NCBI GenBank assembly: GCA_017543725.1
Contig: JAFYFO010000326.1
Location: 1 to 11,973 of the forward strand
DNA: 11,973 bases
Reading direction: 5' to 3'
From: Eubacterium sp.
Lineage (GTDB): Bacteria; Bacillota; Clostridia; Oscillospirales; Acutalibacteraceae
The translations under genes and the position numbers were made by a program. Each line of letters starts with the position of its first letter. Position 1 is the stretch's first letter. The notes beneath the pieces are model-generated. The model did not search any database and was not told the origin of the DNA. It was given only the letters and a program-made list of their open reading frames with translations. Below are positions 1 through 11,949 of this stretch, piece by piece.

Positions 1-397
1 GTCCGGCGAAAGCGCTCTTGCCCTTTTCAACTGTTTTGCCGACATTGTCGCCCTCATCCTTGATGGTTTTGCACCAGTCAATAGCCTTTGTAACCTTTCT
101 TGAAGAAAGAAGAAGACCGAGGATAACAAGTTCTTTAACAGCGTTTGCGTTTGCACCGGGAGTGTTGAAAACAACAATTCCTTTTTCAGCGCAGTCTGCA
201 ACGGGAATATTATTTGTTCCCGCGCCCGCTCTTGCAATTGCAAGAAGGCTTTCGGGCATTTCCATATCGTGCATTGAAGCGCTTCTTACCATTATTGCGT
301 CGGGATTTTCAATATCGTCAGCGTAGGTATATTTAGTTGTGTCAAACTTTGAAAGACCTACATTTGAAATCTTATTGAGAGTTTTAATATTAAACAT
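1..397 (-). CDS. serA: D-3-phosphoglycerate dehydrogenase, N-terminal part (cut by window edge)
   Basis: This is the first 132 codons of a gene that runs off the left end of the window. SerA oxidises 3-phosphoglycerate with NAD+ to 3-phosphohydroxypyruvate, the first step of phosphorylated serine synthesis in the cytosol. The visible part is the substrate-binding half of a D-2-hydroxyacid dehydrogenase. ARAGAGTNNIPV (residues 56-66) and the NTPGANANAVKELVI stretch (78-92) are typical of the short clostridial SerA type. The NAD-binding Rossmann motif would lie just beyond the edge. The ATG is preceded by AAGGAG (plus-strand 408-413) at good spacing. The gene follows serC on the same strand, 126 bp downstream, so both probably share a transcript unless the hairpins between them interrupt it. 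Family call is firm; the exact subtype and length cannot be judged. Confidence 0.93.
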   Translation of the reverse strand, partial: MFNIKTLNKISNVGLSKFDTTKYTYADDIENPDAIMVRSASMHDMEMPESLLAIARAGAGTNNIPVADCAEKGIVVFNTPGANANAVKELVILGLLLSSRKVTKAIDWCKTIKDEGDNVGKTVEKGKSAFAG

Positions 398-407
398 ATA
401 AATAAAT

Positions 408-413
408 CTCCTT
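408..413 (-). promoter_or_regulatory. Ribosome binding site of serA
   Basis: AAGGAG on the minus strand, about ten bases before the ATG at 397-395. It fixes the serA start. Confidence 0.8.
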
Positions 414-430
414 ATATTATAACCTTAATG

Positions 431-481
431 GCCTTCCCCCCTCGGGGGAAGGCGGCTGCCGCAAGGCAGACGGATGAGGGG
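431..481. repeat. GC-rich double-hairpin intergenic element (REP-like)
   Basis: Within an otherwise AT-rich spacer there is a compact GC-rich block. Positions 431-440 and 444-453 form a perfect 10-bp stem (GCCTTCCCCC with GGGGGAAGGC) with a three-base loop. Positions 456-460 and 465-469 form a second stem (CTGCC with GGCAG) closed by a GCAA loop. The tail GATGAGGGG can pair alternatively with CCCCTC at 438-443. From memory, elements of this layout (C-run/G-run hairpin, second hairpin, then GGATGAGGGG) recur between genes in many gut Clostridia, but only one copy is present here, so 'repeat' is an inference. No T-run follows on either strand, so it is not a standard terminator. It could stabilise mRNA or partly separate serC from serA expression. 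Confidence 0.6.
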
Positions 482-493
482 AATTAATCAGGC

Positions 494-521
494 AAACCGG
501 CTGTGAAAAGACAGTCGATTT
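494..521 (-). other. Hairpin directly downstream of serC
   Basis: AAACCGGCTGT (494-504) and ACAGTCGATTT (511-521) pair in 10 of 11 positions (one mismatch, one G-U) around a six-base loop. It starts two bases past the serC stop. No run of U follows in the minus-strand transcript, so a full terminator is doubtful. A 3'-end stabiliser or weak attenuator between serC and serA is possible. Confidence 0.5.
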
Positions 522-523
522 GA

Positions 524-1609
524 TTATTTATTCTCCTCTTCGAATTTCTTCATAAATGCAACGAGTTTTTCAACGCCTTCAATCGGCATTGCGTTATAGA
601 TGGACGCTCTCATACCGCCAACGCTTCTGTGACCTTTGAGGTTAACAAAGCCCGCTTCGGTTGCCTCTTTGATGAATTTTGCGTTGAGTTCATCGCTGTC
701 TGTTACAAACGGAACATTCATAAGGCTTCTGTCTTCGGGAACAACCGTACCCTTGAACATCTCTGAAGAATCAAGGAAGTTATAAAGAACTGCAGCCTTC
801 TTTTCATTATGAGCCTTCATTGCTTCAAGGCTTCCGAACTCTTCCTTAATCCAATCAAGAACGAGTTTGCAGATATAAATAGTCCAGCAGGGAGGAGTGT
901 TGTAAAGAGAATCAGCGTCTGCCTGAACTTTATAGTTCATCATAACGGGAGTGATATCTCTTGCGTTGCCTAAAAGGTCTTCGCGGATGATTGCAACAAC
1001 AAGACCTGCGGGAGCAACATTCTTCTGAGCGCCGAAATAAACAACGCCGAACTTGCTGATATCAAGGGGCTCTGAAAGAGCGCAGGAAGAAACGTCTGCA
1101 ATAAGAACTTTATCGCCAACGGGAGGAAGTTCTTTATAAACAGTTCCGTAAATAGTGTTGTTCATACAGATATAAACATAGTCTGCGTCTTCTCTGAAGT
1201 CCTCTGCCTTGGTTTTGGGAATATAACTGAAAGTTTTATCAGCCGAAGAAGCAACAGCCTTAACATCGCCGTATTTCTGCGCCTCCTGATAAGCCTTTTT
1301 AGCCCACTGACCTGTTATAATATAGTCAGCCTTGCCGCTGCCGTTCATAAAGTTGAGCGGAATTGCCGAAAACTGTGCGGAAGCGCCGCCCTGAAGGAAT
1401 AAAACCTTATAGTTATCCGGAATTTTATAGAGTTCTCTCATAAGAGCCTCTGCCTCTTTGATGATATCGTCAAAAACTTTTGAACGGTGGCTCATCTCCA
1501 TAACGCTCTGACCGCTGCCTTTGTAGTCCATCATCTCTGCCGCTGCCTTCTCGAGAACGGACTCGGGAAGTGTTGAAGGACCTGCGCTGAAATTATAAAC
1601 TCTTGCCAT
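524..1609 (-). CDS. serC: Phosphoserine aminotransferase
   Basis: SerC transfers the amino group of glutamate to 3-phosphohydroxypyruvate, giving phosphoserine; it is a cytosolic, pyridoxal-phosphate-dependent class V aminotransferase. The 361-residue length is normal for the family. Visible motifs are NFSAGPS at the N-terminus (6-12), GQSVMEMSHRS (33-43), FLQGGASAQF (71-80), the cofactor lysine in FGAQKN (K196), and GHRSVGGMRASIYNAM near the C-terminus (327-341), which carries phosphate-binding residues. The start ATG is preceded by GAAAGAGG. Its product's substrate comes from SerA, encoded next on the same strand, so the pair forms a serine operon. Transcription very likely starts from the consensus promoter at 1694-1721. 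No defects are seen. Confidence 0.97.
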   Translation of the reverse strand: MARVYNFSAGPSTLPESVLEKAAAEMMDYKGSGQSVMEMSHRSKVFDDIIKEAEALMRELYKIPDNYKVLFLQGGASAQFSAIPLNFMNGSGKADYIITGQWAKKAYQEAQKYGDVKAVASSADKTFSYIPKTKAEDFREDADYVYICMNNTIYGTVYKELPPVGDKVLIADVSSCALSEPLDISKFGVVYFGAQKNVAPAGLVVAIIREDLLGNARDITPVMMNYKVQADADSLYNTPPCWTIYICKLVLDWIKEEFGSLEAMKAHNEKKAAVLYNFLDSSEMFKGTVVPEDRSLMNVPFVTDSDELNAKFIKEATEAGFVNLKGHRSVGGMRASIYNAMPIEGVEKLVAFMKKFEEENK

Positions 1610-1638
1610 AATAAGTACCTCTTTCGTTTGTTATAGTA

Positions 1639-1685
1639 TGCTTTTTATTAAAATGCGATAAACTTTCACGCCTTTTAAAAAAGCA
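1639..1685 (-). promoter_or_regulatory. Hairpin in the serC 5' leader
   Basis: In the minus-strand transcript, TGCTTTTTTAAAA (plus 1685-1673) can pair with TTTTAATAAAAAGCA (plus 1653-1639), with a two-base bulge. The stem lies in the roughly 78-nt leader between the predicted start point and the serC start. It is AT-rich and ends well before the ribosome binding site. It may only protect the 5' end. I see no riboswitch or T-box pattern. Confidence 0.35.
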
Positions 1686-1693
1686 CTAAACCT

Positions 1694-1721
1694 ATTATAT
1701 AGATATTCATCTTTTTGTCAA
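1694..1721 (-). promoter_or_regulatory. Sigma-A type promoter of serC
   Basis: On the minus strand, TTGACA (1721-1716) and TATAAT (1699-1694) are separated by 16 bp. Both hexamers match the consensus perfectly. Predicted transcription start is near 1687, giving a leader of about 78 nt before serC. Confidence 0.85.
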
Positions 1722-1802
1722 TGTGAGTTAAAAATCTTTGGTGAATCTTACAACAGATTGTTATTTTTTTAACAATGATATGCAAAAACGCTTTCAATCC
1801 CG

Positions 1803-1833
1803 ATAAAAAATCGGGAACGCAAAGTTCCCGATT
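1803..1833 (-). terminator. Rho-independent terminator of the three-gene operon
   Basis: On the minus strand AATCGGGAAC (1833-1824) pairs perfectly with GTTCCCGATT (1818-1809) over a five-base loop, followed by a run of T. It begins about ten bases after the stop of the membrane-protein gene. A second, mutually exclusive stem (CCCGAT 1799-1804 with ATCGGG 1810-1815) overlaps its lower arm. Confidence 0.88.
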
Positions 1834-1843
1834 CCATTATTTA

Positions 1844-2668
1844 TTAGTCTTCATCTCTTATTTTAGCATCAATAACTTTCATTGCGGAGAATGCGCTGAC
1901 CGCAACTATAACCGAAAAGAAAGTTATTATAAGGAAAATCTTTGAAGAAGTTGAAACCATAGCCGCTTTATGGATTTGCGGAAGAATATCAATTGTTGAG
2001 CCGAGCCCGGTTATAACAAGCAATAATGTTCCTATCGCCGTTGCGCCCGAGCCTGCGAGTATTCCGCCGATTGCGTTGAAATAGCCGTGTTTCTTTCTTT
2101 TATACATAATCATAATGGAGGGGAAACAGGCAAACGCCAGAAGGAAGGAAACAATCGTTGCAACAGAGAAAATTCTTGCCAGACGGCTCAGCCTCGCTTC
2201 AATTCCGCCTGCGTTATGAAGACCGACGGTATCGCTGTATATTTTCGCCGCCTTCTGAGCAACTCTTTTTATATCGTCTTTTTTATAGGAAATATCGTTT
2301 CCTTCAAGATATTCAACGCTCAGTTCATAGAAATAACTGACTTTGTTTTCACTGTAAAGCGTTTCATTCTCTTCACTGAAAACGCTGAGCGCCGCCTGAC
2401 GGAGAGCCTCATCGGTCGGATAATCAACCTCAACTCTTTCAAAAACCCTTGCAGGAATGGAAGTTTCGTGAGAAAGCGCCTCATATTTCATATTGAGTTG
2501 GCTGTTGCACTCCGCTTCAAGTTCCTGGGTTGCAAACTGATTGATAAAATAGTTTTTATCGGCGGTTGTGAAAGTCATAATTGCCGATATCAGAAAAACA
2601 ATCGTGCATATCGCAGTAACAATTTCAAGAATCATTGCAACAATTCTTCTTGATTCATCAAAACTCAT
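1844..2668 (-). CDS. Uncharacterised four-helix membrane protein
   Basis: I do not recognise a family. The 274-residue product has one hydrophobic helix near the N-terminus (about 13-33), a long hydrophilic segment rich in Glu, Lys and Tyr (about 35-160), and three further hydrophobic helices (about 166-190, 196-225 and 242-264). With four helices, the middle domain and both ends lie on defined sides; the basic YKRKKHG loop after helix 2 (about 189-195) argues that this loop is cytoplasmic and that the large 35-160 domain is outside. The start overlaps the stop of the preceding gene as TAATG and is preceded by a strong GGAGGT (plus 2675-2680), so translation is coupled. It is the last gene of the operon and precedes a strong terminator. 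No transporter or enzyme motif is visible. Confidence 0.8.
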   Translation of the reverse strand: MSFDESRRIVAMILEIVTAICTIVFLISAIMTFTTADKNYFINQFATQELEAECNSQLNMKYEALSHETSIPARVFERVEVDYPTDEALRQAALSVFSEENETLYSENKVSYFYELSVEYLEGNDISYKKDDIKRVAQKAAKIYSDTVGLHNAGGIEARLSRLARIFSVATIVSFLLAFACFPSIMIMYKRKKHGYFNAIGGILAGSGATAIGTLLLVITGLGSTIDILPQIHKAAMVSTSSKIFLIITFFSVIVAVSAFSAMKVIDAKIRDED

Positions 2669-3276
2669 TACCCCACCTCCTCATAAACAAGCGCATTATA
2701 ATGCGAGGTAAAGCCAACGCCTTTCGACTCATGGTAATAAACAACAATTGCCTTTTCGCATCTCGGAGCGAAGTTTAAAACCGCAAATTCGCTGTTGAAA
2801 CTGTATTCGCCGACAAATCTGTATTTCTTTTCTCCGAAAACCGAGCCAACATTGAGAATTGTTGATTTCTTTATCTCGTTTGCGATAACATTCGAGGCTG
2901 AAATATAAGAAAATCCGGTCTGCCCGAAAGCAACGCTTTCTTTATTGAATGAAACTGCAACCTGAATCCTTGAATAATCCATATCATATAATATGGGGAA
3001 TTCGCCGCCGGCCCTGATAACGCCGATGCACTGATTTTTTTCAAAATCCGCAGGGTTTGCGTTTTTATCCTCTTTATAAGTATACTTATCCGAATCGTGA
3101 ATTTCGGTTCGCTCTTTCTCATCAATGAATTCATCGTGATAAGCATATTCGGCGTGGTTAAAAAGCGGAATAAAATCACTTATATTAACTTTCAGATAAA
3201 CGAAAAGAACAATTGAAAAGACAACCGCCATTATAGCGGGAACAATTATTGCCCTTCTAAAAAAATCCTTGTTCAT
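2668..3276 (-). CDS. Membrane-anchored protein with faint sortase-like layout
   Basis: The 202-residue product has a single hydrophobic helix (about 9-29) after a short basic N-terminus (KDFFRR), so it is probably anchored with the C-terminal 170 residues outside. The outer part loosely follows the order of class B sortases: a CIGVIRAGGEFPILY segment (83-97) where sortases have a strand entering the core, FGQTGFSYI (118-125) where they have the catalytic GH, then KKYRFVGEY (150-158) and AVLNFAPRC (165-173) near the usual TLxTC position. The His is replaced by Gln and the Cys context is wrong, so catalytic activity is unlikely. This resemblance is by eye and may be chance. AGAGGA precedes the ATG. 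It sits 21 bp after the upstream gene and overlaps the next by one base. Confidence 0.7.
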   Translation of the reverse strand: MNKDFFRRAIIVPAIMAVVFSIVLFVYLKVNISDFIPLFNHAEYAYHDEFIDEKERTEIHDSDKYTYKEDKNANPADFEKNQCIGVIRAGGEFPILYDMDYSRIQVAVSFNKESVAFGQTGFSYISASNVIANEIKKSTILNVGSVFGEKKYRFVGEYSFNSEFAVLNFAPRCEKAIVVYYHESKGVGFTSHYNALVYEEVG

Positions 3277-3297
3277 ATTTTCCTCTTTGTTTCAGAA

Positions 3298-4134
3298 TTA
3301 CTGCTGGTTGAGTGCGTTTGCAACAGAAAACTTTTTATTCTTTTTGGGTTTATATGCAGGAGGGTTTGCAAGTTTCTTTGTGAAACGGTTGTTTTTTGCG
3401 GTTATTTTATTTATTTCGTGAACGGGACCCGCCATATATTCGGTCATATATTTATCCGCAACCGCCATCATTTCTTTATCGTTTTTCATCTCGCCGAGAA
3501 TTGTTACTCCGATAATATCCTGAACTTCGTTTGTTCCGTCTTCAAAAATCTCACCGAGCATTTTGAAAAGTCTTTTCTGCTCCGCGTCAGTTCCGTTTTT
3601 GATTATATCAAGAACCTTTTTGTTTCCGTGCTCAATAAAGAAAGTTTCGGGAAGAAATTCGCCGTACTGAGCGATATTCATTTTGATTTCATCTTTGTAT
3701 TCGGGATAGAGCGCTCCGAAACGGTTTGCAAGAGAATCAACATCATAACTGATTGCGCCGTTTTTCGCCTTTGTTCTTGAAACAGCCTTGGGCATTTTGA
3801 TTTTTTCAAGGTCCGCCTTCTTTTTAACGCCGAAAAGGTGAACTATTTCATCCCTTGCCTCGTTTGCGGCGGAGCGGGCGTCTCTCTCATCAATGTTATC
3901 AAGTTCGAAAAGGCTTCTTGAAGTTGTGTTGAACTCGGTTTTTTCGCCGAGGTCCTCATAGGCGCATTCAAAGGAAAGAATACTTGTTTCCTCATCAAAA
4001 ACCATTCGATATATTCCCTTTTCGCCCGAAAAACTAACCGAATTATCGCTTTGCGCGGTTTTTTTGAAACCGAGTTCGTTATTAACATCGTTTAAGTTTT
4101 TTTCGATAATATTAAAAGCTTCGTTTAACTGCAT
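3298..4134 (-). CDS. Uncharacterised soluble protein, first gene of the operon
   Basis: The 278-residue product has no signal peptide or membrane helix. An N-terminal region (about 1-100) alternates charged and hydrophobic residues like a small alpha/beta domain. A helical region follows (about 130-245), containing NRFGALYPEYKDEI and AQYGEFLPETFFIEHGNKKV. The C-terminal tail (about 246-278) is Lys/Asn-rich and probably disordered. The helical part reminds me of a small DUF found in hypothetical proteins of gut Firmicutes, but I cannot name it safely. AAAGGAT precedes the ATG, and a consensus promoter lies 34 bp upstream. As a cytosolic protein encoded with two membrane proteins it may be a partner of an envelope complex; that is inference from context only. 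Confidence 0.8.
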   Translation of the reverse strand: MQLNEAFNIIEKNLNDVNNELGFKKTAQSDNSVSFSGEKGIYRMVFDEETSILSFECAYEDLGEKTEFNTTSRSLFELDNIDERDARSAANEARDEIVHLFGVKKKADLEKIKMPKAVSRTKAKNGAISYDVDSLANRFGALYPEYKDEIKMNIAQYGEFLPETFFIEHGNKKVLDIIKNGTDAEQKRLFKMLGEIFEDGTNEVQDIIGVTILGEMKNDKEMMAVADKYMTEYMAGPVHEINKITAKNNRFTKKLANPPAYKPKKNKKFSVANALNQQ

Positions 4135-4167
4135 TTTTTTAATCCTTTCATATAAACATACAAAGAC

Positions 4168-4196
4168 ATTATATCATCATCAATCCCTTTTGTCAC
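4168..4196 (-). promoter_or_regulatory. Promoter of the unknown three-gene operon
   Basis: On the minus strand GTGACA (4196-4191) and TATAAT (4173-4168) are 17 bp apart, with TG one base before the -10 (extended -10). Only one base deviates from consensus. Predicted start point is near 4161, giving a leader of about 27 nt. Confidence 0.8.
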
Positions 4197-4319
4197 TATT
4201 TATTTTTAAAAGTTTAAAACAGGGATTTTCAGGAGTTATTTTATATCACACGCTTGTTTTCCTGCGTTTAGCAATTTTATGACTTTTTTGAATATTTGAT
4301 AATAAACAAAAACTTTGTG

Positions 4320-4348
4320 TTGATATTATTTTATTTATATGATAAAAT
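4320..4348 (+). promoter_or_regulatory. Promoter of the murI-argS operon
   Basis: TTGATA (4320-4325) and TAAAAT (4343-4348) are 17 bp apart. It faces away from the operon promoter at 4168-4196. The 120 bp between the two is AT-rich and shows no other clear site. Confidence 0.75.
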
Positions 4349-4380
4349 ATTAGGAATTAAAATTTCAAGGGTGAGAGCAA

Positions 4381-5196
4381 ATGGATAAAAGACCTGTCGG
4401 AGTGTTTGATTCCGGGCTCGGCGGACTTTCAACTGTTCGGGCTATGAAGAAAATTCTTCCGAATGAGGATATAGTTTATTTCGGCGATACGGGAAGAGTT
4501 CCCTACGGAAGCCGCTCAAACGAAACAATCGAAACATACGCCGCTCAGGATATAAAATTTTTAAGAAGTTTTTCGTGCAAAATGATTGTTGCCGCCTGCG
4601 GAACTGTTTCAACAGCCGCTTCAAGCGTTATCGAAAGAATTCAGGAGCCTGCAACGGGCATAACAAAGCCTTCGGCAAAAGCGGCGGCTCTTGCAACTAA
4701 AAACAATATTATCGGCGTTATGGGAACAAGCGCAACCGTTAATTCAAACGCGTTTGAAGAGGAAATCCGCAAAACTAACCCAAACGCAAAAGTTGTTTCC
4801 GTTGCCTGCCCGATGCTCGTTTCCCTTGTTGAAAACAACTGGATTGATATAAACGACGAAGTTGCAAATGCGGCGGTTAAAAGATATCTGCGCCCGATTC
4901 TTGAAGCAGGAGCGGATACGGTTATCCTCGGCTGCACCCATTTCCCGATTCTTGCCCCGATTATTCAGAAAGCGGCGGGCGGATATGTTAAACTAATAGA
5001 CACAGGGTATGAAGAAGCGCTTTATGTTAAAGAAGTTCTGAAAGAGAACAATCTTGAAAACAGCGCCGAGCATAAAGGAAATCAGCAATACTTTGTTTCG
5101 GATAAAACCCAGAATTTCTGCGATGTTGCAAATGTTCTTCTGGGAGAAGATATTGAAGATAAATGTCAGTTCATTGATATTTTTAAGTTTATTTGA
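4381..5196 (+). CDS. murI: Glutamate racemase
   Basis: MurI interconverts L- and D-glutamate without a cofactor and supplies D-Glu to peptidoglycan synthesis in the cytosol. The 271-residue length is normal. The N-terminal GVFDSGLGGLS (7-17) holds the substrate-binding Asp10 and Ser11; YFGDTGRVPYGSRS (33-46) is a second signature. The two catalytic cysteines are Cys73 in AACGTVS and Cys185 in LGCTHFP, followed by His187. The first cysteine motif reads CGT where most family members have CNT; I believe this form is common in Clostridia, so it need not mean lost activity. Start ATG lies behind AAGGGTGAG. The gene leads a plus-strand operon with a DUF1934 gene, argS and a radical SAM gene; the next start is within a few bases of its stop. 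Confidence 0.95.
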   Translation: MDKRPVGVFDSGLGGLSTVRAMKKILPNEDIVYFGDTGRVPYGSRSNETIETYAAQDIKFLRSFSCKMIVAACGTVSTAASSVIERIQEPATGITKPSAKAAALATKNNIIGVMGTSATVNSNAFEEEIRKTNPNAKVVSVACPMLVSLVENNWIDINDEVANAAVKRYLRPILEAGADTVILGCTHFPILAPIIQKAAGGYVKLIDTGYEEALYVKEVLKENNLENSAEHKGNQQYFVSDKTQNFCDVANVLLGEDIEDKCQFIDIFKFI

Positions 5197-5198
5197 TT

Positions 5199-5633
5199 AT
5201 GGATAAGAAAGCACTTATTAAAGTTGTCGGAAAACAGCGTTTCGGCGACGATAAAGATAAAATTGAATTAACAACCATCGGAACTTTTGAGGAAACAAAC
5301 GATTGTTTTATTCTCAGATACGATGAAGAATCCGAAGCCCCCGGCGCAAGGATAAAAACAACCCTGAGCATTTCAAAGGATGAAAAAACCGTTCAACTGA
5401 TGCGCGAGGGAAAAAGCGGCTCGCTTCTGATAATTGAGCGCTCAAAGAGGAATCTTTGCAACTATCCAACCGATTTCGGCGATATCCTTATGGGAATTTT
5501 CGGGAAAAATATTGAGCATGACTGCAGCGAAAACGGCGGCAAGTTCAATTTTGATTATGATATTGATGTAAACGGAGCGATCTCCTCGCAAAACGAGGTT
5601 GAAGTTACATATAAACTAAAGAGATTAAATTAG
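5199..5633 (+). CDS. DUF1934 (YwiB-like) beta-barrel protein
   Basis: The 144-residue product matches the pattern of the DUF1934 family, small calycin-like beta-barrel proteins of unknown role that sit next to argS in many Firmicutes (ywiB-argS in Bacillus subtilis). Visible signs are the KVVGKQRFGDDKDKIELTT start strand, the EDT-like polar turns, and YDIDVNGAISSQNEVEVTYKL near the C-terminus, typical of the last strands. It is cytosolic, with no signal or membrane helix. I chose ATG 5199, two bases after the murI stop; a TTG at 5193 overlapping the murI stop would add two residues. Neither start has a good ribosome binding site, so translation is probably coupled to murI. Family is fairly sure from context plus sequence; function unknown. 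Confidence 0.85.
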   Translation: MDKKALIKVVGKQRFGDDKDKIELTTIGTFEETNDCFILRYDEESEAPGARIKTTLSISKDEKTVQLMREGKSGSLLIIERSKRNLCNYPTDFGDILMGIFGKNIEHDCSENGGKFNFDYDIDVNGAISSQNEVEVTYKLKRLN

Positions 5634-5642
5634 GAGAAAACA

Positions 5643-7331
5643 ATGTCTCAGTTAGTACAGGAAACACAAAAAACAATAAAAGAGGCTGTTATTTCGGCTA
5701 TTAACGCGGCTGTTCTCAAAGGCGAACTTCCCGAGGCTGAAATGCCCGATTTCATTATCGAAAAGCCCTCCGATAAAAAGAACGGCGATTTTTCAACAAA
5801 TGTTGCAATGGCAGGCGCAAGAGTATACAGAAAAGCGCCGCAGATGATTGCAAAAAGCATTGTTGATAATCTCAATCTTGAAAACACTCTTTTTGAAAAA
5901 GCCGAAATTGCAGGTCCCGGTTTCATAAATTTCTATCTTTCTCAGAAATACTATTCCGAAATAGTCAGGGATGTTATCGCAAAGGGCGAAGACTACGGAA
6001 AAAGCGATTTCGGAAAAGGAAAAAGCGTTCTTGTTGAATTTGTTTCGGCAAACCCAACGGGTCCGATGCACATAGGAAACGCAAGGGGCGGCGCTATCGG
6101 CGACTGTCTGGCGGCGGTTCTTGAATATGCGGGCTATGAAACAAAGAGAGAGTTTTATGTTAACGACGCGGGAAATCAGATTGAAAAATTTGCAACCTCG
6201 CTTGAAATTCGCTATCTTCAGGCTTGCGGAGAAGAAATTGAACTTCCCGAAGACGCTTATCACGGCGCGGATATAATCGAACACGCAGATAATTTCAAGG
6301 CTCAGTACGGCGATAAATATGCAAAGTGCGGCAGCGAAGAAAGAAGAAAAGCGCTTGTTGACTTTGCTCTTCCCAAAAACATTGAGGGTCTTGAAAGGGA
6401 CTTAAAGAAATACAGAATAACCTATGATAAATGGTTCAGGGAATCAACTCTCCACGCAGACGGCTCTGTTGAAAAGGTTATAAACGCGCTCAAAGAAAAA
6501 GGCGTAACCTATGAGCAAGACGGCGCTTTGTGGTTTAAAGCAAGCGAATTCGGAAATGATAAAGATATCGTTCTTGTTCGCGCAAACGGACTTCCGACTT
6601 ATATAGTTCCTGATATTGCATATCATTATAATAAACTCATAACAAGGGGATTTGATAAGGCGATAGATGTTCTCGGCGCAGACCACCACGGCTATATCGC
6701 AAGAATGAAAGCGGCTTTAACCGCTCTCGGAATAGACGCTTCAAGGCTTGATATTGTTATAATGCAGATGGTTCGCCTTGTTCGCGACGGCGAAACAATC
6801 AAACTTTCAAAGAGAAGCGGAAAGGCTATAACGCTCGGAACACTGCTCGAAGAAGTTCCGATTGACGCGGCAAGATTCTTCTTCAATCTCAGAGAGCCGA
6901 ATTCGCATTTTGATTTTGATTTGGAACTCGCAGCAAAGCAATCAAGCGATAACCCTGTTTATTATGTTCAGTATGCTCATGCAAGAATTTGCTCAATCAT
7001 CAGAAAGGCTCAGGAACAGGGCGTTGTTATCAAATCGCCCGACGAAATCAATCTCGATTTACTTTCAGGCGATGAAGAAAGAGAACTGATAACCCATCTT
7101 TCAAAACTTACCGATGAAATAATTTCTGCGGCAAGGCAATACGACCCTGCAAAAATAACCCACTATGTTATTGAACTTGCAACTCTTTTCCATAAGTTTT
7201 ATAATGCAAAAAGAGTTGTTGTTGAAGAGCAGGAACTTATGCAGGCAAGGTTAACGCTCTGCATAGCAGTTAAAAACACAATCGCGAATATCCTGACAAT
7301 GCTTAAAATTGATGCACCTCAGTCAATGTGA
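5643..7331 (+). CDS. argS: Arginyl-tRNA synthetase
   Basis: ArgS charges tRNA-Arg with arginine using ATP, a cytosolic class I synthetase. The 562 residues fit the bacterial form. The N-terminal Add-1 domain (about 5-95) contains the family's KNGDFSTNVAM. The catalytic core carries ANPTGPMHIGNARGG with the HIGH-type motif HIGN (143-146), FYVNDAGNQ (171-179), and a KMSKS-equivalent LSKRSGK (388-394). The C-terminal DALR-type anticodon-binding domain runs from about 435 to the end and includes HKFYN. AGGAG overlaps the stop of the preceding DUF1934 gene (TTAGGAG) and lies six bases before the ATG, so the two are tightly linked. No defect is seen. Confidence 0.97.
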   Translation: MSQLVQETQKTIKEAVISAINAAVLKGELPEAEMPDFIIEKPSDKKNGDFSTNVAMAGARVYRKAPQMIAKSIVDNLNLENTLFEKAEIAGPGFINFYLSQKYYSEIVRDVIAKGEDYGKSDFGKGKSVLVEFVSANPTGPMHIGNARGGAIGDCLAAVLEYAGYETKREFYVNDAGNQIEKFATSLEIRYLQACGEEIELPEDAYHGADIIEHADNFKAQYGDKYAKCGSEERRKALVDFALPKNIEGLERDLKKYRITYDKWFRESTLHADGSVEKVINALKEKGVTYEQDGALWFKASEFGNDKDIVLVRANGLPTYIVPDIAYHYNKLITRGFDKAIDVLGADHHGYIARMKAALTALGIDASRLDIVIMQMVRLVRDGETIKLSKRSGKAITLGTLLEEVPIDAARFFFNLREPNSHFDFDLELAAKQSSDNPVYYVQYAHARICSIIRKAQEQGVVIKSPDEINLDLLSGDEERELITHLSKLTDEIISAARQYDPAKITHYVIELATLFHKFYNAKRVVVEEQELMQARLTLCIAVKNTIANILTMLKIDAPQSM

Positions 7332-7342
7332 AAGGAAAACAA

Positions 7343-8770
7343 ATGGCTAAAATAAGCAGCAAAACCCTGCATAAATTAGGAAATTCAATATTTAAATATG
7401 TTTATAAGAATCCCGAGAAAAACCTTCTCAGAATTGTTAAGGTCGGCAAAATGGTTGCAGGAAAAATGTATCCGAAATCAACCTTTGAAAAGCCGATTGA
7501 GATAATATGCGATAAATCAAACATCTGGCACGATTATCTTTTCAACGGTCTTGAGAATTTGGACAGAGAGGCTTTCGCAAATCTCGCGCTGACCTTTGCA
7601 ATAGACGCAGGATATATCGGAACTTCCGCCCTGCGCTCAAACAGGGAAAAACTCGGCTGCAACATTCCCTGGGTTATTCTTCTTGACCCGACAAGCGCCT
7701 GCAACCTCAAATGCAAGGGCTGCTGGGCGGCTGAATACGGGCATAAATCAAACCTGCCTCTTGACGATATGAGAAGGCTCATAAAAGAGGCGAAAGAACT
7801 CGGAACCCACTTTTTTATGTTCACGGGCGGCGAACCGCTTGTCAGAAAGAATGATGTTTTAACCCTTGTCAGGGAGAATAAAGACTGCATTTTTCTTTGC
7901 TTCACAAACGGAACCCTTGTTGATGATGAATTCTGCGAGGAAATGAAAAAAGCGGGCAATCTTGCTCTTGCCCTTTCAATTGAAGGAAGCGAAGAAACAA
8001 CAGATGAAAGAAGGGGCGACGGCGTTTATCAGAAAGTTTTAAACGCTATGCAGATTCTTAAAAAACATAAATGCATTTTCGGAACTTCCGTTTGCTACAC
8101 AAGCAAAAACTATGAAGCAGTAACAAGCGACGAATTCTATGATATGGAAATCGAAAACGGCGCTATTTTCAGTTGGTATTTCCACTATATGCCGATTGGC
8201 GCGGGCGCAGATACAAGCCTGCTTCTTTCCCCCGAACAGCGTGAACATGTTTACAGAGCAATCAGGGAAAAGCGAAACAGCAAAACAGGCAAGCCGATTT
8301 TCACTGTTGACTTCCAGCACGACGGCGAGTTCGTCGGCGGCTGCATTGCCGGCGGCAGAAACTATTTCCATGTTAACTCCGAAGGCGATGTTGAACCCTG
8401 CGTTTTCATTCACTACAGCGACTGCAATATTAAAGAAAAAAGCGTTCTTGAATGTTTGAGAAGTCCCCTTTTCAAGGAGTTTTATAAAGGTCAGCCTTTC
8501 AATGATAATATGCTGCGCCCCTGCCCGATGCTTGAAAACCCCGATAAACTCAGATATATCGTTAAAACAAGCGGCGCAAAATCAACAAATCTTGTTCAGG
8601 CTGAATCAGCCGAAGAACTTTGCGCAAAAACAGATGAATACGCCAAAAACTGGGCGCCGAAAGCAAAAGAAATCTGGGAGGAGCAGGAGCGCTTCCACCC
8701 CTTCACCCAGTATTGGCGCGATACGGAAGAAGGCAAAGCAGAACTTAAAAAATCGGAGGCGGCAGACTAA
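7343..8770 (+). CDS. Radical SAM protein with C-terminal cysteine (SPASM-like) region
   Basis: This 475-residue enzyme binds a [4Fe-4S] cluster through CNLKCKGC (C120, C124, C127) and S-adenosylmethionine through GGEP (162-165), the radical SAM core. Further cysteines at C334 (GGCIAGG), C353 (EPCVF), C361 and C394 (RPCPM) are placed like ligands for auxiliary Fe-S clusters of SPASM-type proteins. The N-terminal 100 residues are helical and specific to this subgroup. I recall close relatives as 'radical SAM protein' across gut Firmicutes, with unknown substrate. ATG 7343 is preferred because AAAGGA lies seven bases before it; a GTG at 7328 overlapping the argS stop would add five residues. The gene ends the murI operon; its stop codon sits in the loop of the terminator. 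No precursor-peptide gene is seen nearby, so peptide modification is not indicated. Confidence 0.9.
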   Translation: MAKISSKTLHKLGNSIFKYVYKNPEKNLLRIVKVGKMVAGKMYPKSTFEKPIEIICDKSNIWHDYLFNGLENLDREAFANLALTFAIDAGYIGTSALRSNREKLGCNIPWVILLDPTSACNLKCKGCWAAEYGHKSNLPLDDMRRLIKEAKELGTHFFMFTGGEPLVRKNDVLTLVRENKDCIFLCFTNGTLVDDEFCEEMKKAGNLALALSIEGSEETTDERRGDGVYQKVLNAMQILKKHKCIFGTSVCYTSKNYEAVTSDEFYDMEIENGAIFSWYFHYMPIGAGADTSLLLSPEQREHVYRAIREKRNSKTGKPIFTVDFQHDGEFVGGCIAGGRNYFHVNSEGDVEPCVFIHYSDCNIKEKSVLECLRSPLFKEFYKGQPFNDNMLRPCPMLENPDKLRYIVKTSGAKSTNLVQAESAEELCAKTDEYAKNWAPKAKEIWEEQERFHPFTQYWRDTEEGKAELKKSEAAD

Positions 8771-8785
8771 CGCCCCCGATTTTTT
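8747..8785 (+). terminator. Terminator of the murI-argS-radical SAM operon, enclosing the stop codon
   Basis: AATCGG (8751-8756) pairs with CCGATT (8776-8781) and GGCG (8758-8761) with CGCC (8771-8774), with one A-C mismatch between. A T-run follows and an A-run precedes, so it could work both ways. The loop (8762-8770) contains the TAA of the radical SAM gene. Confidence 0.85.
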
Positions 8786-8880
8786 ATGCATATTAATTCA
8801 ATCAAACAATCAATCTCCGCCCATTGAAACGATTAATACCAAGCGTTTTATAAAAATTTCAAAGAAAAGCAAAAAAAGAC

Positions 8881-8909
8881 TTGAATATTAAGTTTGAATG
8901 TGTTATATT
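8881..8909 (+). promoter_or_regulatory. Promoter of the tRNA-Gln gene
   Basis: TTGAAT (8881-8886) and TATATT (8904-8909) are 17 bp apart with TG one base before the -10. Start point would be near 8916, giving a 22-nt 5' leader for RNase P to remove. The stretch from 8786 to 8880 shows no gene or other clear signal. Confidence 0.65.
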
Positions 8910-8937
8910 ATCATTTGCAAAAAGCAGAAAAACACAT

Positions 8938-9011
8938 AGAGGCATAGTGTAACGGTAACACTCCGGACTCTGACTCCGTCATTTAAGGTTCGAATCCTTA
9001 TGCCTCTGCCA
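8938..9011 (+). tRNA. tRNA-Gln, anticodon CTG, CCA encoded
   Basis: A complete cloverleaf folds. Acceptor stem AGAGGCA (8938-8944) pairs with TGCCTCT (9001-9007). The D stem is GTGT/ACAC. The anticodon loop is CTCTGAC (8968-8974) with anticodon CTG at 8970-8972, which reads CAG. The T stem is TAAGG/CCTTA around TTCGAAT (8989-8995). G9008 is the discriminator and CCA is encoded at 9009-9011. The anticodon-arm sequence resembles known bacterial tRNA-Gln genes. The outermost anticodon-stem pair is C8963-T8979, a mismatch, and the first acceptor pair is A-T instead of the T-A usual for tRNA-Gln. In Firmicutes this tRNA is expected to be charged through GluRS and GatCAB, since GlnRS is normally absent. 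Confidence 0.95.
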
Positions 9012-9015
9012 AGAG

Positions 9016-9046
9016 AAAAGAGAGCACTCAATGTGCTCTCTTTTTT
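9016..9046 (+). terminator. Terminator of the tRNA-Gln gene
   Basis: AAAAGAGAGCAC (9016-9027) pairs perfectly with GTGCTCTCTTTT (9033-9044) over a five-base loop, followed by T residues. It starts five bases after the CCA end. Confidence 0.92.
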
Positions 9047-9052
9047 CTTCGT

Positions 9053-9173
9053 AGAAGAAGATAAGGATTCGAAACGAGCTTCTGTTTTTGCTGTGCAGCT
9101 CGCTGCTGAGCAAAAACAGGAAGAAAGCCCAGTGGGCTTTCTGTCCGCGAGAGGAGAATCTTCTTTTTTGGAC
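9053..9173. other. Cluster of hairpins with an inverted copy of the tRNA T-arm
   Basis: About 120 bp after the tRNA terminator hold several nested inverted repeats. (1) CTTCTGTTTTTGCT (9079-9092) pairs with AGCAAAAACAGGAAG (9109-9123) with one bulged G; inside it GCAG (9095-9098) pairs with CTGC (9103-9106) around CTCG. (2) AGAAAGCCC (9122-9130) pairs perfectly with GGGCTTTCT (9134-9142). (3) AGAAGAT (9056-9062) pairs with ATCTTCT (9158-9164), enclosing both and followed by a T-run. (4) GTCC (9143-9146) can pair with GGAC (9170-9173). In addition ATAAGGATTCGAA (9061-9073) is the exact reverse complement of 8989-9001 in the tRNA. Short reading frames here are not convincing. It could be a structured RNA, a small mobile palindromic element, or an integration scar; I cannot decide between these. 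Confidence 0.6.
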
Positions 9174-9219
9174 AACAAGCGTTGGCTTTAATAAATGTCT
9201 TTAATTATGCTTCTTATTG

Positions 9220-9228
9220 TGGTATAAT
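9220..9228 (+). promoter_or_regulatory. Extended -10 promoter of the restriction-modification operon
   Basis: TGGTATAAT (9220-9228) is a perfect extended -10. The -35 region (around 9200-9205, TTTAAT) is weak. The start point would be near 9235, so the leader is only about 26 nt to ATG 9261, or 11 nt to ATG 9246. Confidence 0.65.
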
Positions 9229-9260
9229 TCTTATATCAAAACATAATGGTGATTATTCTT

Positions 9261-9974
9261 ATGAACACATTAAAAGTAATTGTGCTTGAAGGGCTTGATG
9301 AACGGCCAGAAGAGAATTATGTTGTTTTTGGAAAATTAGAAATCAAATACTGTTATGATAAACAAACTACGTTAAAAAAGTTCTATACAGATATTAACAG
9401 AATTCTTTTTCCTGGTAGCAGTAGTTATAAACCTTATATGTTTAAAGTGTTCACAACAGACTATAAAAAAACAAAATGCTTTTCAGATAAAGATTCAAAT
9501 AAAGATATCTGCAACCTATTTGATCTAAGCAAACCAATAAGATTAATATATTATCATGATTACGAGGGTGCGGGCTGTTGGGGCGAATCTAACGGCTTAC
9601 GATTTGATATCAAATTTAATGAAAATAACCATATGGCTACTCCACATGTTCACGTTAGTTACGGAAAAAACCAAAAGGCGCGCATTAACATAATTAATAT
9701 TAAAGTTTTGGATAACAGCAATAAAAAGCACGAATTAAGCAGAAAGCATTTAAAACAAGCATTAAAATTTGTTAAGAAGCATCAACTCGATTTTATAGAA
9801 ATGTGGAACGATTTCACATTGTGTGATATGATAATTGATATTAATTATTTTAAAAACACTAAAAAATTACGATTAGTGAAAAGGACGGAAAATATAAATC
9901 TATATCACAGACAATTTCAAAGCAAAAAGAACAACAAATGGTCAGAAGTTGAGGATAAAATCATTTTTAATTAG
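9261..9974 (+). CDS. DUF4160-like protein encoded before the HaeIII-type gene
   Basis: The C-terminal part (about 112-188 of 237) matches the pattern of DUF4160: an H-x4-PHVHV motif (H124, H129, H131), a KARINI strand, a variable strand, then a helix ending [13 protein letters not shown], the usual 'H..EL...W' close. DUF4160 proteins are small and of unknown function, often found in toxin-antitoxin-like pairs; I place this by eye. The N-terminal 110 residues, rich in Lys, Tyr and Asp, I do not recognise. No helix-turn-helix is visible, so a classical controller protein is unlikely. ATG 9261 is preferred because GGTGA (9248-9252) lies eight bases before it; ATG 9246 would add five residues. 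The stop is 16 bp before the methyltransferase start, so the two are one operon. Base composition is clearly more AT-rich than the genes to the left. Confidence 0.75.
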
Positions 9975-9990
9975 AAAGAATTGTTTTACT

Positions 9991-11949
9991 ATGAAATTAA
10001 TCAGCCTTTTTTCCGGTGCCGGCGGTTTAGACCTAGGCTTTGAAAAAGCCGGATTTGAAATTGCTATGGCTAACGAATACGACAAAGGTATTTGGGATAC
10101 ATACGAAAAAAATCATACTGCCCCATTAATCAAAGGTGATATCAGGAATATCAAGGAATCTGATTTTCCTGATGAGGTTGACGGCATAATAGGCGGTCCT
10201 CCTTGTCAGAGTTGGAGTGAAGCAGGTTCTTTAAGAGGAATCAACGATTCACGTGGTCAGTTGTTTTTTGACTACATAAGAATATTAAGAGAAAAACAAC
10301 CCAAATTTTTTCTTGCTGAAAATGTTTCGGGAATGCTTGCCAACCGCCATTCTGAGGCAGTAAAGAACATAGTATCTCAATTTGAAGATTGCGGATATGA
10401 TGTTTCAATAACTCTTGTTAATGCTGCTGATTATGGAGTTCCACAAGACAGACATAGGGTTTTCTATATCGGTTTCAGAAAAGATTTAAATATCAATTTT
10501 GAATTTCCAAAGCCAACTACACCTTATAAATCACAAAAACTCACAATGAGAGATGCAATAGGTGATTTAGCAGGAACAGCCATTCCTGCATTGCCACATA
10601 ACAAAACAAACGGTAACTTAAAAATTCCCAATCACGAATACTTTACTGGCGCATATTCAACAATTTTTATGAGCCGAAACAGAGTTAGAGCATGGAACGA
10701 ACAGGCGTTTACTGTTCAAGCAAGCGGAAGGCAATGCCAGTTACATCCGCAAGCTCCAAAAATGAAATTTGTTGAAAAAAACAAGCGCATATTCGTTCCG
10801 GGATATGAAGACCTTTACAGAAGACTAACCGTAAGGGAATGTGCAAGAATACAGGGCTTTCCTGATGACTTTGAGTTCATTTATACCGATGTAGATTACG
10901 GATATAAAATGATAGGTAACGCCGTACCGGTCAATTTAGCTTATGTAATTGCTTGTGCAATAAAAAACGCTTTAGACACAAAAAGGAATCGTAGAATGAG
11001 TAATGCAAGTAATAATCAAGGCAGAGCATATGAATATATTTGCTTGTTAACCCTTGAAAAAGAAATAAGTAAATATAGAAGTGTAAAAATCGAAATCAAT
11101 TCAAGCTATGAGGCTGCAAAAAGCGCATGGGAATCTATTGATTTTGAGTTGCAAAACACTTTAAAACTAAGTGCAAGCGCTGCTGTTCAAACTATATTTG
11201 ATATGGAGCCGTTAATAATTGAAGACGGAAAAGATGAATTAGAGCTTAAAATTCAAAAAGACAGCGAAGGCGAATCCGGAGATGTCAGAGATATTCTCAT
11301 TATAAGAAGAAACATAAAATGGGAAATCGGTTTAAGTATTAAGCACAACCACTTTGCAGTTAAACATAGCCGTTTATCCCCTTCAATAGATTTTGGAAAC
11401 AAGTGGTTTGGCGTTGATTGTTCGCAAGAATACTGGAACGCCGTTAATCCAATCTTTGAAAACTTGAAAAAGCAAAAAACACAAGGCTTAAATTGGCGTG
11501 ATTTATCGGACAAAGAAAATGATGTTTATATTCCGTTACTGAAAGCGTTTGTAAATGAAATCAAAAACAGCAATGAAAGCAGTCTCGATATTCCAAAGAA
11601 AATGGTTGAATATCTTTTAGGCGAATTTGATTTTTATAAGGTTATCAGTATTGACAATAAAAAGCTTACACAAATTCAAACTTACAACTTAAGAGGCACG
11701 TTAAATCAACCGAGTAAGCAGCAAACCGCAAAAATTAAAGTGCCGGTTTCATATTTACCGACACGCATTATCAGTTTAGATTTCAAGCCCAACAGTAATA
11801 ATACGGTTGAGCTTTATATGGATAACGGTTGGCAATTCAGTTTCCGAATCCATAACGCTTCAACAAAGGTTGAAACCAGTTTAAAATTTGATATTCAGAT
11901 TATCGGTATGCCAGCAACAATTGTTTCGATTAATTGTATATGGACATAA
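9991..11949 (+). CDS. HaeIII-type C5-methyltransferase fused in frame to HaeIII-type endonuclease
   Basis: Residues 1-335 form a complete DNA cytosine-C5 methyltransferase: [12 protein letters not shown] (motif I, 6-17), GGPPCQSW with catalytic Cys72 (IV), AENV (109-112, VI), QDRHR (152-156, VIII), the target-recognition stretch around [20 protein letters not shown] (227-246), [15 protein letters not shown] (IX) and GNAVP (X). As I recall M.HaeIII, similarity runs through the recognition region, so the target is predicted to be GGCC. Residues 336-652 (317 aa) match the R.HaeIII family: NNQGRAYEY at the start, [15 protein letters not shown], and [18 protein letters not shown] with a PD-(D/E)XK-like site (D431 or D434, E445, K451). 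In Haemophilus these are two proteins; here no stop separates them. ATG 9991 is chosen because it matches the M.HaeIII start; an upstream ATG (9949) adds 14 residues inside the preceding gene. No good ribosome binding site precedes it, suggesting coupling. Confidence 0.93.
10980..10998 (+). promoter_or_regulatory. Methyltransferase-endonuclease junction: A5 run, internal ribosome binding site, out-of-frame TAG and ATG
   Basis: The junction holds an A5 run (10980-10984), AAGGA (10983-10987) about eight bases before ATG 10996-10998, and TAG at 10992-10994 in the -1 register. The ATG is the natural first codon of the endonuclease (MSN...NNQGRAYEY). If the run had six A, the methyltransferase would read ...DTKKES and stop at this TAG, one base before the ATG. 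So the site looks like an old two-gene boundary. A separate endonuclease could still be started here. Confidence 0.7.

Follow-up and report, generated by a model that had tools for sequence, protein, structure and literature searches.

A HaeIII-type methylase-endonuclease fusion with a putative start for free endonuclease at its joint

What does a restriction-modification (R-M) system make, and in what proportion, when its methylase (M) and endonuclease (R) share one open reading frame? The question is raised by the stretch of gut-bacterial DNA analysed here (11 973 nt, bases 1-11973 of contig C260), referred to below as the window, in which a single open frame of 652 amino acids plus a stop codon occupies positions 9991-11949 of the forward strand; an in-frame TTG upstream, at position 9949, would extend it by 14 residues. 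A first-pass annotation had read this frame as an M.HaeIII-like and an R.HaeIII-like protein in one polypeptide, both near full length and differing in architecture from Type IIG enzymes, with a ratio of M to R fixed at 1:1.

The N-terminal half, encoded by codons 1-335 (positions 9991-10995, forward strand) without a stop codon of its own, is a C5-cytosine methyltransferase of the M.HaeIII type. Pfam family PF00145 (C5 methylase) covers residues 1-325 of the fused protein (357.6 bits), and the best solved match is the M.HaeIII structure 1dct (489.5 bits, residues 1-328), in the alignment to which the recognition region closely resembles that of M.HaeIII. The C-terminal half (positions 10996-11949, forward strand) is a HaeIII-family restriction endonuclease: PF09556 (RE_HaeIII) matches at positions 11020-11913, corresponding to residues 344-641, over profile positions 1-298 of 298 (Pfam, 475.1 bits), and no solved relative of this half was found among the best 60 of 71 structure matches. 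An AlphaFold2 model of the fusion (mean pLDDT 84.0, pTM 0.51) contains two folded halves connected by a flexible joint at residues 332-338 (positions 10984-11004, forward strand; pLDDT < 50), which is flanked by helices 314-333 and 339-359; pLDDT is also low in part of the methylase recognition region (residues 210-226 and 228-230). In agreement with the annotation, the frame at 9991-11949 truly joins an M.HaeIII-type to an R.HaeIII-type protein, ordinary Type IIP partners that are each near full length, and its predicted specificity, by similarity, is GGCC. The full-length PF09556 domain and the M.HaeIII-type C5 methylase assign the system to the HaeIII-type Type IIP R-M systems, and the presence of both predicted enzymes in a single frame assigns it to Type IIC. 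Type IIG enzymes are defined by an N-terminal nuclease joined to an amino-methylase with a shared recognition domain; here the methylase comes first and is a C5 enzyme, and R belongs to a family of its own, so the architecture is not that of Type IIG.

We searched for homologues with the full 652-residue protein, as the annotation had proposed, and found that all 120 homologues listed (of 5694; 60-96% identical) carry both Pfam domains; this search admits lengths of 0.55-1.75 times the query, a range that shuts out M or R genes standing alone. A search of genomes with the R half, in which 80 of 295 loci were kept, gave 2 fused loci (L003 and L031), 68 with an M gene followed by an R gene, 9 with the reverse order and 1 (L081) without a methylase in reach. 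Full-length R matches numbered 27 across the genomes sampled, and 4 of these lay in frames of at least 655 codons (G000, G1371, G188 and G486). The endonuclease was present in 5 of 80 genomes of the window's genus, fused in two and as part of a two-gene system in three. Further genome searches gave no additional fused DNA, and no fused form was observed in plasmid records (at least 5000 matched, of which 5 cover at least 80% of the query in one place, all annotated as two genes), in phage records (none covers 80% of the query) or in viral contigs (7 loci: 6 two-gene, 1 without M). The two-gene arrangement is the rule among relatives, and the fusion recurs. One recurrence, L003 (the same record as L121), comes from a second genome of the genus, with an M half 97.6% and an R half 94.0% identical to those of the window; the R half of P0002 is identical to that of L003, and the two are not independent. 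P0080, one of the 120 fused homologues listed, occurs on 514 contigs.

Other arrangements were also observed. The nine loci with R before M (L025, L026, L066, L068, L075, L076, L079, L080 and L082) belong, by their record titles, to Bacteroidota families, and their methylase starts close behind R; in L066, L075 and L080, a second M.HaeIII-like match lies behind the first. In L101 and L105 (G645), a HaeIII-family endonuclease stands in pieces (profile positions 1-47 and 109-298) behind the methylase. P0247 (505 amino acids) joins a radical-SAM part (PF04055) to a HaeIII-type endonuclease and may be an assembly chimera.

We then placed the fused proteins on a FastTree phylogeny of 230 R halves with the start residue omitted, comprising 121 fused proteins together with 109 separate ones, which were chosen by us from 240 listed and entered without view of the neighbouring methylase, so that the counts of changes describe this sample. 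The fused or separate state changed at least 21 times among the 230 proteins, or 9 times when only branches with support of at least 95 were counted. The window and P0002 are nested among separate relatives, and the fusion of the window accordingly looks young. The clade of P0080 is fused in 68 of its 73 members, with a tree length of 6.39. On this tree, fusion recurs in several lineages that switch between the fused and two-gene states. The annotation had called the fusion unusual; this is borne out to the extent that two-gene relatives are the rule, but the arrangement is less singular than was claimed.

The junctions of two-gene systems are closely packed: M and R overlap at 42 of 96 junctions (by 4 nt at 22 of these) and abut at 5, and the gap between them measures 1-20 nt at 46 and more than that at 3, counts in which some records are double (for example L004 and L122) and in which the R start is misassigned for L034, L047, L059 and L077, whose M stop abuts the R start. 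The two-gene locus L004 is one in-frame stop codon away from a fused frame. In the window, the stretch from TTAGA to AAGGA, the ribosome-binding site (RBS) of R, is 6 nt long, compared with 4 nt in the two-gene locus L005, whereas the distance from AAGGA to the R start is 8 nt in both. M is in frame with R in the window because the stretch upstream of the RBS is 2 nt longer than in L005; since the spacer differs before AAGGA and is the same after it, the frame differs upstream of the RBS, which kept its place. We also considered a selected linker specific to fusions in the P0080 clade and rejected it, because the separate methylase of L092 has a tail like that of the fused L091; the L092/L091 tail resembles the P0080 tail more loosely.

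At the joint of the window, the RBS-like sequence AAGGA (positions 10983-10987, forward strand; read directly, duplex energy -5.6) lies 8 nt before an in-frame ATG (10996-10998, forward strand), which aligns with the R start of two-gene relatives and is the putative start of a free R of 317 amino acids (36.5 kDa). The element as a whole spans 10983-10998, the position at which the separate endonuclease starts in relatives, and AAGGA and its spacing to the R start are common to the window, L003 and the two-gene locus L005. In a single frame, a free methylase would be impossible, while a separate R start appears to be kept. The energy of the internal site is the strongest among the 19 in-frame ATG, GTG and TTG codons of the frame and is moderate among codon positions of any kind (55 of 683 are as strong).

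Comparable sites were found in all five fused genes read at the DNA level (the window, L003, L031, L091 and L094, of which four are independent): AAGGA-8-ATG in the window and L003, GGAGG-8-GTG in L031, AGGAGG-7-ATG in L091 and GAGGAGG-8-TTG in L094. The joint start ranks first among the in-frame starts of the window (1/19), L031 (1/25), L091 (1/34) and L094 (1/27), and in L003 it comes second of 21, behind the M start; sites as strong as that of the joint occur at 4 of 658 codon positions in L031, 3 of 689 in L091 and 3 of 719 in L094. The product of the site ranks is 2.3e-6, a value that enters the window in place of L003, the more favourable of the two, and takes the four genes as independent. 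For comparison, the R start of two-gene loci is ATG, GTG or TTG in 93 of 94 cases, with a median site energy of -8.0 and an energy of -4 or stronger in 77 of 93 (some records are double in both counts, for example L004 and L122). At the joint, four of the five fused genes have weaker mRNA structure than their frame median; L031 is the exception, with structure above its median (at 447 of 638 positions it is no stronger than at the joint). The claim that M:R is fixed at 1:1 finds no support here: an RBS and an in-frame start codon for R are present at the joint in 5 of 5 fused genes, and the residues at this position are of the start-codon type in 119 of 121 fused proteins.

In the R-start column of these 121 proteins, we counted M 84, V 32, L 3, I 1 and R 1, and the protein with R has a Met one residue later. 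On the R tree, this position changed at least 19 times, nearly always between residues that ATG, GTG or TTG can encode, while the two residues that precede it changed 26 and 30 times among 11 residue types each. Two binomial figures, 6e-7 and 4e-4, presuppose a simple codon model. The columns in which M and V each occur 10 times or more (336, 475, 521, 534 and 640) served as controls: three of the four columns other than 336 hold much I (67, 67 and 30), and column 640 resembles column 336 (M 97, V 15, T 6, A 2, I 1). The near absence of isoleucine at the R start is telling in our view, although not unique. These counts make it less likely that the M/V/L pattern arises from a hydrophobic site in the protein structure, with the qualification that column 640 is also M/V almost without I. 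The isoleucine of P0046 at the R-start position counts against a kept start. The P0080-type clade, the largest with 68 fused proteins, was judged by residues alone, and its residues before the Met spell no obvious GGAGG; its R-start position changed at least 10 times and holds M 47, V 19, L 1 and I 1.

We consider it likely from these patterns, with slightly less confidence in view of column 640, that closely packed Type IIP M and R genes merged into one frame that gives both an M-R fusion and a free R. The first product, of ~74 kDa, would be the sole source of methylase, with the two enzymes tethered by the flexible joint, and the second, of ~36 kDa, would arise by internal initiation at 10996; ribosomes would have to use this start, and both halves would presumably be active. 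As M has no stop codon, every methylase would carry an endonuclease, and internal initiation would add free R, so that R would equal or exceed M, the reverse of a host guarded by surplus methylase; a constant 1:1 ratio of M to R is thus improbable. Any methylase-first delay would come from enzymology (the methylase acting as a monomer, the endonuclease as a dimer) rather than from expressing the two separately. Once tethered, R may have lower activity than when free, and we conjecture that the internal start is kept for this reason, since a loss of activity like that in a fused Eco29kI would give free R a use. Where a fusion is young, the start may just have had no time to disappear. In our assessment, the chances are about even for the broader proposal that single-gene Type IIP R-M systems of this kind form a class that recurs in nature: all methylase would bear endonuclease, free R would come from a selectively kept start, one internal RBS would set R:M at 1 or above, and safe entry into a new cell would rest on enzymology rather than on methylase being made first.

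An error of sequencing or assembly that merged two genes has a negligible probability: two-gene relatives do exist in the same genus, but this fused frame stands in a second, independent genome as well (L003), L031, L091 and L094 are also fused, and so are all 120 homologues listed, among them P0080 with its many contigs. The annotation's reading of the joint as real is upheld. It is also unlikely that the fusion alone is made, with M:R at 1:1 and the internal start surviving unused from an ancestor with two genes. The nesting of the young fusion of the window among two-gene relatives would fit such a relic, and a single-chain enzyme is favoured by the engineered Eco29kI R-M fusion, which kept both activities, that of the methylase at 80% and that of the endonuclease at one third (PMC3039593). 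However, a relic should drift freely, whereas the R-start position of the P0080 clade kept almost exclusively M and V through its repeated changes, and equally strong sites are scarce in L031, L091 and L094.

The remaining alternative overlaps with the two-product reading and differs from it in the role of the fused chain: the cell would rely on free R started internally, and the fusion would be near-neutral, a methylase with an inert R tail. This is a serious possibility, held at somewhat less than even confidence. The frequent switching between the fused and separate states on the tree speaks for this alternative; the inertness of a tethered R is, however, a supposition of which these data give no sign. 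We retain the reading in which the merged frame yields both the M-R fusion and free R.

The neighbourhood of the fused gene was examined as well. A 242-amino-acid gene at 9246-9974 (forward strand), with a C-terminal DUF4160 or DhiT-like stretch (Pfam 43.6 bits; NCBIfam DhiT 41.4 bits, below its cut-off of 100), ends 16 nt before the methylase start. This start has almost no RBS in the window (-0.9, compared with -6.3 in L003), and translation of the methylase may for this reason be coupled to that of the 242-amino-acid gene. A tRNA-Gln at 8938-9011 (forward strand), upstream of the DUF4160 and R-M genes, is a possible insertion site of the block. In L003, the system has neighbours other than those of the window, an IrrE-type peptidase upstream and a TIR protein downstream, which suggests that it moves as a unit; at 320-2166 and 4551-5603 of L003, the fused system stands beside the IrrE-type peptidase with a partner, resembling the candidate defence system PDC-M69, and beside the TIR-domain protein. 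In positions 1-9990 of the window, GGCC occurs 3 times against 26.4 expected. We rejected this avoidance as a sign of long activity, because within the genus (12 of 14 stretches used, L131 and L132 being too short) GGCC stands at 0.21 of expectation with the system (4 stretches) and at 0.25 without it (8 stretches). In the same positions, AGCT is found 3 times against 28.6 expected and is unavoided in stretches from 12 other genomes of the genus (1.08 and 1.02 of expectation), and GATC is strongly avoided (2 against 32.3 expected); the scarcity of both may point to a further R-M system in the species.

Fusions of this kind have already been predicted in print, with HaeIII as a candidate, being named among the head-to-tail systems able to give them (PMC3039593; the word 'internal' is absent from its text), and fusions of two-gene Type II partners are reported to be rare: according to PMC4176335, which takes such fusions as rare, just 0.9% of Type IIC systems are similar to the two-gene Type II ones, for the most part in Firmicutes, while PMC4081073, dealing with Type II enzymes in general, describes gene fusion as common there. 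MTase-REase fusions are expected to dimerise via the REase part (PMC3850674), and a PvuII endonuclease gene that overlaps the upstream gene is described as translated independently (PMC2997769). A Gardnerella GGCC system with HaeIII-family endonucleases is described in PMC7559349, in the available portions of which the words fused and fusion are absent, and no report of a natural HaeIII-family M-R fusion, or of a kept internal start in one, was found in the portions of the open-licence literature searched. The genes described here are natural cases of the predicted and reportedly rare fusion, with both states within one genus. They make it testable how an R-M system settles in an unmethylated cell if the methylase is inseparable from the endonuclease, and they warn that gene-calling programs list a single fused protein for a gene likely to have two products.

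Among known systems, both halves match the families of the HaeIII R-M system (Type IIP, GGCC), and M precedes R; HaeIII itself has two genes, whereas the window has one frame and no free methylase. Type IIC and IIG enzymes (MmeI, Eco57I and others) likewise combine methylase and endonuclease in one chain. The architecture of enzymes such as MmeI and Eco57I centres on recognition shared by both activities, and their cuts usually fall outside the recognised sequence, whereas the window joins a C5 methylase to a whole Type IIP endonuclease by a short joint. In the engineered RM.Eco29kI, a two-gene Type II pair was also joined in one functional chain, as activity is predicted for the window, but this chain was made in the laboratory, in the order R-M and from other enzymes (PMC3039593). 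Natural C-REase fusions such as CR.NsoJ138I join a Type IIP endonuclease to a partner gene of its own system, the partner being a controller protein and not a methylase (PMC3850674). As for the putative internal start, an RBS and a start codon inside the frame are present as in E. coli McrB, where in-frame internal initiation gives a shorter restriction protein (McrBS) from one gene; the short McrB is without the DNA-binding part and dampens restriction, whereas the putative free R of the window would be a whole endonuclease (PMC12707154).
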